Shown piece by piece: positions 1 to 5,109 of a stretch of DNA of 5,109 nucleotides. Every line of letters begins with the position of its first letter. Position 1 is the stretch's first letter. Both the position numbers and the translations under genes were made by a program. Below the pieces are notes generated by a model. That model had not been told where the DNA came from and searched no databases. It saw nothing but the letters and a program-made list of their open reading frames with translations. The stretch spans positions 1 through 5,109 of the forward strand of contig JAGHCW010000165.1 of assembly GCA_021160245.1 (NCBI GenBank). Direction: 5' to 3'. The stretch is from a bacterium. Its GTDB lineage: Bacteria; B130-G9.

Positions 1-1
1 C

Positions 2-3000
2 CTCGCCAGGTCCGAGCGTCTTAACGAGGCTTCCACGCGAGCATGGAATCGGCTCCAAGGGGCATGGGAAGGATTCAAGGACGCCATGGATGCCCTGCCC
101 GAATCCGATGCCGGCACAAGCCTTACCCGCGAAAAGTGGCTCTTGATCCTTTTCCAGGAACTCGGGTACGGCCGCCTGACTACCCGCAAGGCCCATGAGA
201 TCGAAGGAAAGACCTATCCGGTCAGCCACGAGTGGCAGAACACTCCCATTCATCTGGTCAGCTTTCGCCAGGACCTCGACAAGCGCACGCCCGGCCGAGC
301 TGGTGCCGCCCGCGTCAGTCCCCACAGTCTTGTGCAAGAGTTTCTCAACCGCTCCGACGACCACCTCTGGGGCTTTGTTTCCAACGGCCTGAACCTGCGC
401 CTCTTGCGAGACAATGTTTCACTCACCCGCCAGGCTTACGTTGAGTTTGATCTCCAGGCCATGATGGACTCGGAGGCCTACAGCGACTTTTTCCTGCTCT
501 ACCTGTTGTGCCACCAGTCCCGCGTCGAGGTTCCCGAAGGCAAAGGTCCTGCGCACTGCTGGTTGGAAAAGTGGTACAACACCGCCGCCCAGCAAGGCGT
601 CCGCGCCCTCGAACAATTGCGCGACGGCGTACAAAGGTCCATTGAAGCGCTGGGCGGTGGGTTTCTGGCCTTTCCCGGCAACACCGCACTGCGCGAGAAA
701 CTCCGCACCGGAGCACTCAGTACACAGGACTATTACCGCCAGGTTCTCCGCCAGGTCTACCGGCTTCTGTTCCTGTTCGTAGCCGAGGATCGGGAACTAC
801 TGTCTGACCCAAACTCGCCGCCCGGGGCACGTAAACTCTATCTCGATCATTACTCGACTCAGCGTTTGCGATCCCTTGCCGGGAAAACACGCGGCACACG
901 TCATCCCGACCTCTGGCGCGCCCTGCGGCTCGTTCTCGAAAAGCTCCACCGCGGTTGTCCGCAACTGGCTCTCCCGGCCCTGGGAAGCTACCTGTTCTCA
1001 GTTGAAGCGACCAGGGACCTGAATGATCAGGACATCGCCAACAAAGACCTGCTCAAGGCCGTCCGCGCTCTTGCCTTTACCGTGGATCGTAATGTCCTGC
1101 GGCCGGTCAATTACCGAAACCTCGGCCCGGAGGAACTCGGCAGCGTGTACGAGTCGCTGCTGGAGATGCATCCGACCATCCACATAGAGGCCACGAATCC
1201 CGAGGATCGCTTTCGCCTCACCGTCGCTGCCGGGTCCGAGCGCAAGACCACCGGCAGCTACTATACGCCCACGAGCCTTGTCAATTGCCTGCTCGACTCA
1301 GCCCTCGACCCGGTGCTGGATGAAGCTTGCAAGAAGCCCGATCCCGAAAAGGCGGTTCTGGCCCTGAAGGTTTGCGATCCGGCCTGCGGCTCCGGGCATT
1401 TCCTCATCGCCGCCGCACACCGTATCGCTAAGCGTCTGGCGGCCATCCGTTCGGGGGAGGACGAACCTGCGCCCGAGCACTACCAGCACGCCCTGCGCGA
1501 TGTGATCGGCCATTGCATTTACGGTGTGGATATCAATCCCATGTCTGTGGAGCTGTGCAAGGTCAGTTTATGGATGGATGCAATGGAGCCGGGCAAGCCG
1601 CTGGCCTTCCTCGACCACCGCATCAAGTGCGGGAACAGCCTGCTCGGCGCTACACCGGCGCTTCTCAAGAAAGGCATTCCCGACAATGCTTTCAAGCCTA
1701 TCGAGGGCGATGACAAGGAATTCTGCAAGGATTACCGAAAGCGAAACAAGGAGGAAAGACGAGGAAGCCGTTCGCTTTTTGCCCCTGATGGAATGCCATG
1801 GGAACAACTGGGCGACCTTGGGCCCGCCCTCATGGAAATCGACGCCTTTGACGATTCCACCCTGGATGGCCTGCAACGTAAAGAGGAGGCCTATTCCCAA
1901 TTCATCCGCTCGAGCGGATATCTCTTCGGAAAACTCCTTTACGATGCCTGGTGCGCCGCTTTTGTATGGAGAAAGCGCCATTCCGGTGAGCTGCCTTACC
2001 CCATCACCCAGGAAATACTCGACCGGATAAGGCGTAATCCTCATAGCTGCCCCCCCTGGATGCGCGAGGAAATCATCCGCCTGTCGCAAGAATATCAGTT
2101 CTTCCATTGGCACCTGGAATTTCCGGATGTGTTCAAACCGAAAGCCGGAGATGAAATTGCAGAGGATGAGGTAACCGGCTGGTCCGGCGGGTTCGACTGC
2201 GTGCTCGGGAATCCGCCGTGGGAGCGGATCAAACTCCAGGGGAAGGAATGGTTCGCAACAAAATCCAAAGAAGTTATGAACGCGCCGAATGCAGCATTTC
2301 GAAAGAAGGCAATTGCGAAGATTAAAGCCAATGATCCGATTCTCTATGATGAATTCCGCGCAGCAGCTAGACGAGCAGAGGCCCAATCACATCTAGTACG
2401 CAATGGAGGGAGATTCAGATTATGTGCTCGAGGTGATCTGAATACCTATAGCCTGTTTGCCGAGATATTCACCCAATCAATAGGAGGCTTAGGTTTTGCC
2501 GCCATTATAGTACCAACGGGCATCGCGACTGATGACTCAAACAGCAATTTTTTTGGATATCTAATACAGCAGAAACGTCTGGTCAGTCTTTTTGACTTCG
2601 AAAATCGTGAACGTATTTTATTTCCAGAAGTGTATTACCGCATGCGCTTCTGTCTTCTCACTGTTTGCGGAATTGCAAGATCTTGGGACGAACCATTGTT
2701 TTCTTTCTTTGCTTTGAACATCGACGATCTCGTCATTCCAGGTCAAGTGTTTAGTCTCTCGAAAGATGTTATCAATTTGATTAACCCAAACAGTAAAACG
2801 TGTCCAATTTTTCGCTCAGAAAAGGATGCGGAACTCACTAAGCAGATATACCGCCGCGTACCCGTCCTTGTCAAAGAAGACCGTGACGGCCAGGCCGAGC
2901 AAAACCCTTGGGCTATTAAATTCAAAAGCATGTTTCACATGACAAATGACTCCGAGCTCTTTATGGCGCAAAACTTCTTCGACGAAAGCTGGATACCGAA

Positions 3001-4534
3001 AGGGAATATATATGCGAAAGGCGAACAGGAGTATTTTCCCCTATACGAAGGGCGTATGATCGATAACTATGATCACCGCCTTGCTTCCACACGAATTAAG
3101 GATATCAATCTCCAGCGTTCGGGGGAATCGGTTATTTTGACTTCCTTTGAAAAAGACAACCCTGATTGCATCGCGAAACCACGATACTGGGTATCTTCCG
3201 CCAGTATCAAAAACGCTTCTTGGGAAATTTGCGATCAAGGTTGGGTGCTGGGTTGTATGAGCATAACGAGTGCAACGAATGCTCGAACATGTATTGCTTC
3301 AGCCATTCCCCAATCTGGTCTTGGCAATTCTATTATTGGGTTGCTTCCTGAAACCGATGCAAGATATCAATGCTGTCTGCTCGCGCATTTATGCTCCTAC
3401 GCATTTGACTATGTCTGTAAGCAAAAGGTCAGTGGCAATAATTTCAACATGTTCATCATAAAGCAACTTCCGGTTTTTCCTCCATCTATCTTTGATGAGC
3501 CATCTCCATGGGATAGACGCAGAACCCTTCTGAAGTGGATTGTTCCAAGAGTTATAGAGCTGTCATACACCGCAAATGATTTGCACGATTTTGCACGTCA
3601 GGTCGGTTACAATGGTGAGCCGTTCCATTGGGATAACAATCGGCGTTTCCTTATCAAGAGTGAATTGGATGCTGCTTTTCTCCACCTTTTTGGTTTAGAC
3701 CGTGAGGGAGCGGAGCATATCCTCGACGCATTTATAATCGTCAGAGACCGCGAAATTAAAGAGTATGGCTCCTTTCGCACCAAGGATACAATTCTCGAAA
3801 TTTACGACGAGATGGCCGAGGTAATGCGGCAGAACACCGCTGCCGTGGCCGCAGGGCGTCAACCTACCGAGCGATACAAGTCGCGTCTCGACCCGCTACC
3901 AGGCCCGCCCATGGACACCGAGGGCAACTTCATCCCTATGGCCCAGTGGGACCGCGCCAATTGGCCTTCCCATATTCACTTGCCCAGGGAGGAGGCGATC
4001 ACGATGCCGGCAGAAGTCCCGCTGGAGGAATTCGCGGCCATGGCCTACCCCGCAACCGAAACCGACAAAGCCATTTGCGCTGCGGCGCTGGCCGCTGTCG
4101 AGCAGTCTCCCGGACTTTCCAGCATGGACCACCTCGATGCCCTTCTGCTGGCCACTCACCCTGACTGGTGCAAGACGTTCCTGGATCAAGTCGATCAGAC
4201 GGCATTCTCCGCCATCGTGAACTCTGCCCCCAGTACCCTGTTTGTCAGCGAGGCCCAGTCCATCAGATGGAAAGAGTGCAGGGATTACCTCGAGCAACTA
4301 CAGGCGATCTCCGTGCGCCACGGAGAGAAGAGTCAAGCCATCGGCCTAGGAGCCGGTTCTGCATCTGTCAAGAGCGACCTGCCGGGTGGTGTGGACGAGA
4401 TCGTCGGTTACGCAATCAAGGCCATGAAACGAATCGCGGAACTCCGTAAGGACTTGTCCAAGGTCCCGCAGGACCAGTTGAGGATCATACAAGCCTTCGA
4501 AGAACAGCACAGGCTATATCAGCTTGCCGCATAG
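2..4534 (+). CDS. Giant Eco57I/PglX-type adenine-N6 DNA methyltransferase, 5' end outside window
   Basis: Probably transfers a methyl group from S-adenosylmethionine to adenine N6 in DNA, marking host DNA in a restriction-like defence system. Residues are numbered from the ATG at 86. Visible family motifs are: [13 protein letters not shown] (227-239); [20 protein letters not shown] (342-361); motif X GSYYTP (390-395); SAM-binding motif [10 protein letters not shown] (431-439); VDINP (481-485); catalytic motif IV NPPW (709-712); GDLNTY (783-788); IVPTGIATD (807-816). The presumed target-recognition region follows, with [11 protein letters not shown] (983-993) and [10 protein letters not shown] (1063-1072), then KQLPVFPP (1126-1133) and [12 protein letters not shown] (1193-1204). 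Residues from about 1255 to 1482 form an extra C-terminal tail. No PD-(D/E)XK nuclease triad is evident in the N-terminal part. The frame stays open from 86 back to base 2 with protein-like sequence ([20 protein letters not shown]), so the true start probably lies upstream. AAGGA at 77..81 makes the ATG at 86 a possible but less likely start. The methylase family call is secure. Whether this is PglX, a class 1 DISARM methylase or another system cannot be decided here. Confidence 0.93.
2222..3800 (+). other. A+T-rich segment inside the methylase gene (later motifs plus target-recognition region)
   Basis: Hand counts of 60-base lines give about 67% G+C at 2161-2220, 45% at 2221-2280, 52% at 2341-2400, 38% at 2521-2580, 38% at 3421-3480, 47% at 3721-3780, 50% at 3781-3840 and 67% at 3841-3900. 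The reading frame is unbroken across it, and A/T-ending codons such as ATA, AGA and TTA become frequent. The left step falls just after catalytic motif NPPW. The right step falls just after the conserved [13 protein letters not shown] segment (from residue 1231). In this enzyme class such a segment holds the DNA-specificity determinants. The pattern fits replacement of that part by recombination, but relaxed selection on composition in a fast-evolving region would look similar. Confidence 0.7.
3841..4531 (+). other. C-terminal extension of the methylase (about residues 1252-1482)
   Basis: After the conserved C-terminal methylase segment ([12 protein letters not shown] ... [13 protein letters not shown]), the protein continues for about 230 residues. 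The sequence runs as a proline-rich linker ([12 protein letters not shown]), a mostly helical stretch starting near T1326 ([18 protein letters not shown]), a Gly/Ser-rich linker ([16 protein letters not shown]), and a charged terminal helix ([16 protein letters not shown] ... [10 protein letters not shown]). Base composition returns to that of the N-terminal half. I recognise no catalytic motif. A docking role for partner subunits is plausible but unproven. Confidence 0.55.
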
Positions 4535-4537
4535 GAG
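4533..4537 (+). promoter_or_regulatory. Shine-Dalgarno of the ATPase gene, overlapping the methylase stop codon
   Basis: AGGAG (4533-4537) lies 9 bases before the ATG at 4547 and overlaps the TAG stop at 4532-4534. Ribosomes ending the methylase would therefore be placed at the next start, which fits translational coupling and one transcript. There is no room for a promoter or terminator in the 12-base gap. Confidence 0.75.
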
Positions 4538-4546
4538 ACCGGCAAG

Positions 4547-5109
4547 ATGAACTTGTACAACACATTGAAATTGAAGCCCGTTCGATCCGAACCGGATGTC
4601 TGGGTCAGCCGTCTGATGATTCTCGAACGGATTGCACCTGATCCTGTCGTGATACGGGATATCCCTTTGACGCGCGGGTTGAACATCATCTGGGCCGAAG
4701 AGGCGGAGGACGACAGTCCGTCGGCCGAGATAACAGGACACAGCGCCGGCAAGACAACCTTCTGTCGATTGGTGCGCTATGTCCTGGGAGAGCGGACCTT
4801 TGGCACAAAGGCCGCGATGGAGCTTATTCGCGGGGCGTTCCCGGAAGGTTACGTCGCCGCCGAACTTAACATTCTTGGCCGGCGATGGGTCGTTCGGCGT
4901 CCGTTCGGCAGCGGCAGAATGTCGTACATCAAGGAGGATGCCTCCATCGAGGAACTGCTTGAACAGCGCGGGCGGTCCGTAACTCAGGAGTCATACCCTC
5001 AAGAGCTCGGCCTGGAAAGCCTGTTGGATGAACTTGAGACCGGCGGGAATGTTCAAACAGGAGAAATGATTCAGTGGGCCCATATCCTGGCCTGGTGTAC
5101 GCGGGATCA
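4547..5109 (+). CDS. SMC/RecF-like ABC ATPase, N-terminal part (3' end outside window)
   Basis: The frame is open from ATG 4547 to the right edge without a stop: 187 codons plus two bases. The start is chosen because it is the first ATG after the methylase stop and has AGGAG at good spacing. Residues 20-50 read as the opening strands of an SMC/RecF/DndD-type ATPase head (SRLMILERIAPDPVVIRDIP, then LTRGLNIIWA), as in proteins with the pattern 'iRdi.l..GlNii'. A P-loop follows at residues 63-71 (TGHSAGKTT) and continues into a helix (FCRLVRYVLGE). The first Gly of the usual GxxxxGK[ST] is Thr63 here. The insert between the second strand and the P-loop is acidic and Ser-rich (EEAEDDSPSAE). Walker B, the signature motif and any coiled coil would lie beyond the window. 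It probably hydrolyses ATP in the cytoplasm as a DNA-binding or sensing partner of the methylase; that role is inferred. A RecF-like or DUF2326-type ATPase is an alternative reading. Confidence 0.82.
   Translation, partial: MNLYNTLKLKPVRSEPDVWVSRLMILERIAPDPVVIRDIPLTRGLNIIWAEEAEDDSPSAEITGHSAGKTTFCRLVRYVLGERTFGTKAAMELIRGAFPEGYVAAELNILGRRWVVRRPFGSGRMSYIKEDASIEELLEQRGRSVTQESYPQELGLESLLDELETGGNVQTGEMIQWAHILAWCTRD

Follow-up and report, generated by a model that had tools for sequence, protein, structure and literature searches.

A very large adenine methylase gene that is followed, 12 bases further on, by a gene for an SMC-like ATPase raises the question to which kind of system such a pair belongs and what the ATPase may contribute to it. 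The window, the whole stretch of DNA analyzed here (positions 1–5109, 5109 bp), is one complete contig (G000:C119) of an assembly of 3.43 Mb in 244 contigs. It holds the following features, all on the forward strand.

2–4534, + strand: N6-adenine DNA methyltransferase, PglX/DrmMI-like, of the ARMADA Type I kind (open reading frame and profile matches)
1376–1405, + strand: methyltransferase motif I (10 residues, 459–468), intact
2210–2221, + strand: catalytic motif IV, NPPW, residues 737–740, intact
3812–4531, + strand: C-terminal tail of the methylase, residues 1271–1510, present only in methylases with an SMC gene next to them; proposed docking domain (alignment)
4058–4372, + strand: predicted winged-helix core of the tail, residues 1353–1457, compatible with the LmuC fold (AlphaFold2, pLDDT 82)
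4533–4537, + strand: AGGAG resembling a Shine-Dalgarno sequence; it shares bases with the stop codon of the methylase and lies 9 nt ahead of the following ATG (sequence)
4547–5107, + strand: SMC/LmuB-like ATPase, N-terminal 187 amino acids, cut by the contig end (open reading frame and homologues)
4736–4756, + strand: Walker A motif GHSAGKT, residues 64–70 of the ATPase (alignment)

The methylase reading frame comprises 1510 codons, is open at the 5′ contig edge and ends with a TAG at positions 4532–4534; judged by the start codons of its relatives, about 35–40 amino acids are missing from the N-terminus. Its Pfam matches were to Eco57I/N6-adenine methylases (2.5e-18 and 2.2e-9). The SMC reading frame starts with an ATG at position 4547 and remains open at the 3′ contig edge. 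It represents a real gene, with 71% identity across all 187 amino acids to the SMC protein of locus L111 (Chloroflexi). This locus, the nearest relative of the window, has a methylase with 54% identity, the same 12-nt gap and a full-length SMC protein of about 690 amino acids. The 12-base gap, the overlap of Shine-Dalgarno sequence and stop codon, and the pairing of an Eco57I/PglX-type methylase with an SMC-like ATPase, all of which had been claimed in a sequence-only reading of this DNA, were borne out by these open-reading-frame positions and profile matches.

Profile searches and gene context were used to place the methylase. Its best match in PADLOC was DrmMI (226 bits), in a list that also included Type IIG models, and its scores against the BREX PglX equivalogs were far below the cut-offs (49.7 bits versus 400 for BREX-2; 32 versus 500 for BREX-1). 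Identities as a BREX methylase or as a Type IIG enzyme were rejected on cut-offs and gene context. In a methylase tree, the protein encoded in the window fell among methylases located after the helicase genes YprA and BrxHII.

The wider operon was reconstructed from relatives. By tblastn, the methylase-SMC pair was found on plasmids of Mesorhizobium, Agrobacterium, Rhizobium, Caballeronia, and Paraburkholderia, in annotated operons with the order DEAD/DEAH helicase (about 1740 amino acids), DEAD/Snf2 helicase (about 930 amino acids), methylase, SMC and HNH endonuclease; the plasmid SMC genes were annotated as “chromosome segregation protein SMC” or as DUF2326 protein. Pfam searches identified DEAD and MZB (DUF1998) domains in the first helicase of a relative, a YprA-like protein, and the second helicase matched DpdE/DrmD/BrxHII. 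Similarly, in the sister loci L092, L093, L097, L101, and L104, YprA was present and BrxHII was located directly upstream of the methylase. A YprA helicase, a BrxHII-like helicase and a PglX-like methylase, in this order, constitute ARMADA Type I according to the main text of a 2025 preprint (Bell et al., PMC12458937), and the relatives of the window share all three in the reported order. That main text further describes a nuclease domain of the Vsr type that terminates ARMADA YprA, an association with McrBC, and Type II as the type that was tested against phages, with defence by Type II in E. coli requiring the NPPW asparagine of ArmB (PMC12458937).

The window therefore holds a methylase gene that belongs to a relative of the anti-phage system ARMADA Type I, and an SMC gene added to it. 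Systems of its kind differ from ARMADA Type I by the SMC ATPase, by the tail on the methylase and, often, by an HNH nuclease. The main text of the preprint contains no mention of SMC, DUF2326, ABC or Lamassu, and the methylase-SMC pairing is new relative to it (PMC12458937). The earlier expectation that the pair belongs to a variant or rarely described defence system of several genes, some of them beyond the window, agrees with relatives that consist of ARMADA Type I and an SMC gene. Its counterpart, that the neighbours might form a known system in which the pair is already described, proved half true: the neighbours do form ARMADA Type I, but the pair is absent from the main text in which that type is reported.

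Class 1 DISARM (drmD-drmMI-drmA-drmB-drmC) shares features with this locus, as the methylase is closest to DrmMI in PADLOC and the second helicase of the relatives is related to DrmD. In contrast to DISARM, relatives of the window encode a single YprA-type polypeptide with MZB rather than DrmA and DrmB, and they have no DrmC; none of drmA, drmB, and drmC was found on the window contig or in the annotated relatives, and this gene set was encountered only in the distant Verrucomicrobia locus L110. Together with the missed PglX cut-offs, this upheld the earlier statement that the locus is neither BREX nor DISARM.

An HNH gene was located downstream of the SMC gene in 59 of 83 relatives, in 49 of them within 300 nt. 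No HNH gene followed SMC in the closest clade of the window (L092, L093, L097, L101, L104, and L111), so that a nuclease or effector just outside the window, as had been proposed from sequence, applied to most relatives but not to the window's own clade. In ARMADA Type I loci without SMC (L010, L012, L143, L144, L146, and L147), the place after the methylase was occupied by other cassettes: McrBC, an EVE-domain protein with DUF2357, HNH alone, a UvrD-type ATPase with HNH, or an AAA/DUF3696 ATPase with HNH. The slot after the methylase therefore is an exchange site. Other genes were observed near individual loci. Locus L111 carried a Hachiman-like HamA (DUF1837) and a HamB helicase downstream (L111:7851–12220) and, upstream of the methylase, a gene with the appearance of DUF559, while in L033 (12025–15843) a DRT type 1 defence reverse transcriptase (PADLOC Drt1a, 1288 bits) directly followed SMC.

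In the source assembly itself, the contig starts inside the methylase gene and the upstream ARMADA helicases are not on its 5.1 kb. A search of the assembly for ARMADA-like YprA, BrxHII or a further SMC fragment found none; helicase matches were weak, were situated at other loci (C14, C89, C164, C170, and C39), and none extended the window contig. The tetranucleotide profile of the window contig correlated with that of the bin at 0.76, as compared to 0.87–0.93 for six other contigs among themselves. This composition is atypical for the bin, as would be expected of a mobile island or of a contig placed in the wrong bin. The phylum of the source assembly provided 3–4 relative genomes, too few for comparison. 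A second defence-looking operon was observed in the same genome (L026, G000:C39:1–12575); it encodes a large protein whose start, by eye, resembles DUF1156 methylases, and a PLD/Snf2-like start lies at the contig edge.

The strength of the methylase-SMC coupling was investigated by a scan of 84,980 species genomes, seeded with an alignment of SMC, which yielded 117 relatives, of which 80 were retrieved; seven plasmid loci were added. Where upstream sequence of at least 4 kb was available (75 loci), 70 loci had a methylase core directly upstream of SMC; BrxHII and YprA occurred in 69/87 and 61/87 SMC loci, respectively. The five exceptions to methylase adjacency comprised three Type I restriction-modification loci (L055, L061, and L086), L014, in which only a remnant of the end of the methylase was left, and L094, in which a YprA fragment abuts SMC. 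This SMC-seeded scan was complemented by separate searches with methylase and SMC in 398 evenly drawn Pseudomonadota genomes. Methylase was found in 13 genomes, SMC in nine and both in eight, a very strong co-occurrence (Fisher p 8e-13; 2e-11 without the center genome), and the ninth SMC genome contained a decayed ARMADA locus. With the center set aside, 12 methylase loci remained, of which seven were followed by SMC, three were not, and two were at a contig edge. A sample of Acidobacteriota yielded no further SMC genome. These adjacency counts demonstrated that the coupling of methylase and SMC is not due to chance, and the suspicion that adjacency might not be conserved across homologous loci was dispelled.

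Coupling extended into the methylase protein. After residue 1270 (window numbering), all 69 of 69 methylases followed by SMC had a further 162–240 amino acids, whereas the 15 of 15 methylases that were not followed by SMC had 0–40 (one of these was interrupted by an IS element). The “giant” size of the methylase is therefore due to a C-terminal, adaptor-like tail that strictly accompanies the SMC gene. In the tree of methylase cores, at least seven switches of the SMC label fell on supported branches; in 7/7 phylogenetically independent contrasts (p 0.016), the tail changed along with SMC. Since tail and SMC gene are contiguous, this joint change may reflect block exchange, and co-change alone is no proof of contact. 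In either case, the start of the functional block lies within the methylase gene. In loci L130, L131, and L132, the ARMADA methylase was split into a core reading frame and a separate C-terminal reading frame of 495–502 amino acids that bears the tail beside SMC.

No family was matched when the tail was searched against Pfam, PADLOC, and PDB sequences. Its AlphaFold2 model showed a predicted winged helix followed by helices. Foldseek returned nothing significant for this model (best ScpB, E 0.21), and VIA-align returned many winged helices at Z 5–7. Two LmuC chains from solved Lamassu complexes, at Z 5.6 and 5.3, gave the longest alignments listed (126 and 130 residues). As these Z-scores are tied with those of ordinary winged helices, the structural match alone makes the tail compatible with LmuC and does not prove such an identity.

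The tail was also found on subunits of other restriction systems. Three loci from Hydrogenophaga and Methylibium (L055, L061, and L086) have SMC behind a Type I restriction-modification operon; here, the C-terminus of HsdS, which ends at position 10008 in each locus, directly before SMC, is the tail (E 1e-47 to 1e-49). HsdM and a DUF1016/YhcG nuclease were present in L061 and L086, and HsdR in L061. A Type III operon (Mod, Res) precedes SMC in L166 (70–8015), where Res has 1271 amino acids; plasmid Res homologues aligned to its residues 1–1087 only, and the extra 184 amino acids matched the tail of the window methylase (E 7e-14). A second Type III operon (Mod, Res) followed by SMC, with the tail in Res (E 5e-36), was detected in L170 (2110–9932; IMG/VR), on a contig that is viral or prophage-like and has phage-like genes downstream. 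The window resembles these Type I and Type III systems in its tail and SMC only, its methylase being neither HsdM/HsdS nor Mod/Res.

An SMC of the same family was further observed inside the class 1 DISARM operons of Verrucomicrobia L109 and L110, where the order in L110 (2099–18156) is drmD-drmMI-SMC-drmA-drmB-drmC, with an LmuB-like SMC between drmMI and drmA. L107 is a further locus of this kind. DrmMI of L110 extends for 168 C-terminal amino acids beyond the match to the DrmMI model. The DISARM tail resembled the ARMADA tail only marginally (E 0.003 by hmmsearch in L107; E 9.5e-4 with a probability of 22% by hhalign), and by this sequence comparison the tail-SMC unit is probably also present on DISARM DrmMI. 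In the stand-alone DUF2326 locus L169 (Priestia), a separate gene of 166 amino acids lies just before SMC, where a middle component would be expected; its product showed no significant similarity to the tail (E 0.39).

These distributions are consistent with a portable add-on, in which a Lamassu-type sensor of DNA state, made up of one ATPase and a winged-helix plug, has been grafted onto a recognition or restriction subunit of at least three, and probably four, modification-based systems, namely on ARMADA PglX, HsdS of Type I, Res of Type III and, probably, DISARM DrmMI, so that telling self from non-self by methylation becomes a two-signal check. We consider this generalization possible, with chances slightly below even. 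An unlikely alternative, though one with some observations in its favour, is that SMC, with or without HNH, is a self-contained Lamassu- or Septu-like system that has settled behind methylases in defence islands, and that the tail is a mere 5′ boundary of the exchanged cassette, without a part in docking. Defence genes cluster, the SMC family resembles the stand-alone LmuB, and different cassettes (McrBC, HNH alone, UvrD-type or AAA-DUF3696 ATPases with HNH) follow other ARMADA Type I methylases. Against it stands the near-strict adjacency with overlap of stop and start: methylase and SMC reading frames, as called, overlapped in 72/74 pairs, in 33 of these by exactly 17 nt. Moreover, SMC without a tailed partner was hardly ever seen, and the same tail occurs on the unrelated HsdS and Res, always right before SMC, while a neutral cassette does not need recurrent fusion. 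Septu consists of PtuAB, an ATPase and an HNH protein. The presence of an HNH partner prompted a comparison with it; the SMC matched LmuB models and not PtuA.

What the ATPase itself resembles was investigated with profiles and predicted structures, for which alignments without plasmid rows were used. The window SMC, which comprises the ATP-binding half of the protein, matched no family in Pfam and NCBIfam, and a weak Pfam DUF2326 match was found in one SMC relative. In PADLOC, the 187 available amino acids of the window SMC matched PDC-M68B (2e-6) and LmuB (0.015), and the complete SMC of L111 matched the LmuB model at 7.5e-18. The predicted structure of the L111 SMC (pLDDT 79) had YydD as its best fold match (Z 30.8). 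It also matched four Lamassu LmuB structures (Z 23–27, 434–567 residues aligned) and Rad50 (Z 23 over 316 residues), with LmuB ahead or level; LmuB matches at Z 25–27 covered 542–567 residues. Walker A positions G64, H65, G68, and K69 were invariant in 41 sequences, the catalytic Walker B glutamate was replaced by serine in all 40 of 40 sequences covering the position, and a hook-like CPxC motif was present in about 37 of 40 sequences (CPFG in L111). YydD/DUF2326 differs in context, since the stand-alone Priestia locus has separate small genes before SMC.

In Lamassu (LmuA-LmuC-LmuB), LmuB has glutamine in place of the Walker B glutamate and often a zinc hook, and is the likely sensor (PMC10586767). 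The present system shares with Lamassu a short SMC (about 650–690 amino acids) with a zinc-hook-like CPxC and loss of the Walker B glutamate, a winged-helix domain right before SMC in the operon and, usually, a nuclease in the locus. It differs in that the winged helix is fused to the methylase, HsdS or Res, in that HNH of the relatives lies after rather than before SMC and is not LmuA by the models used, and in that SMC belongs to a modification-based system. An LmuB-like SMC was found, as the homologue in L111, and a separate LmuC was not. Any LmuA effector gene would lie beyond the window; behind SMC, relatives show HNH or nothing.

The same comparisons bear on a regulatory or bystander role, in which SMC would restrain the methylase or protect host DNA, by fork protection or repair of self-inflicted damage, without sensing invaders. 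We regard such a role as quite improbable. In every case, SMC is fused to a recognition or restriction subunit or lies beside it, Rad50/RecF-type folds work in repair, and the ATPase is probably hydrolysis-poor; however, besides YydD, its nearest solved relatives are the LmuB sensors of Lamassu, which are closer than Rad50, and a nuclease gene follows SMC in most relatives. A reading of the methylase gene as a common modification gene of the Type IIG or BREX/DISARM kind that has SMC beside it by chance, as the Type IIG models among its PADLOC matches might suggest, is highly improbable in view of the conserved YprA-BrxHII-methylase order, the conserved coupling to SMC and the widely missed BREX cut-offs.

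The explanation that we favour, and consider on balance probable, is that an ARMADA Type I-like modification and recognition subunit carries a Lamassu-like module as an extension. For this extended system, we infer docking, sensing, and defence roles of tail and SMC as follows. The winged-helix domain fused to the methylase C-terminus would take the place of LmuC, which in Lamassu is a separate middle component, and the short LmuB/YydD-like SMC ATPase would be translated from the same mRNA as the methylase. In most relatives, the HNH nuclease would be the third part of the module. The tail would dock SMC onto the DNA-recognition complex, in which the methylase would provide sequence recognition and self-marking, and SMC would bind invading DNA, recognizing ends, hairpins or topology much as Lamassu does. 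Because its Walker B glutamate is serine in all sequences that cover the position, SMC would act as an ATP-binding switch rather than as a motor, with ATP-dependent head closure, without cycling, licensing the nuclease. An unmethylated site and an abnormal DNA state would jointly license cleavage, which would be performed by HNH or, where HNH is absent, by the Vsr-type domain with which ARMADA YprA is reported to end. As the clade of the window has no HNH, the Vsr domain of YprA would have to serve there.

A 2026 review (PMC12904381) counts among the unknowns the way in which BREX, DISARM, and ARMADA block phage DNA that lacks the modification. If true, a modification-linked SMC sensor would provide a testable tie between methylation-based discrimination and the sensing of DNA ends or topology. 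A simple sequence rule, by which a tail of more than about 150 amino acids predicts an SMC partner as the next gene, can be used for finding and sorting such systems. The results further suggest that one sensor module can be moved among restriction systems by means of a small fused plug domain and, if binding and function hold, the portable tail-SMC module would be a larger discovery than the ARMADA Type I variant of the window.
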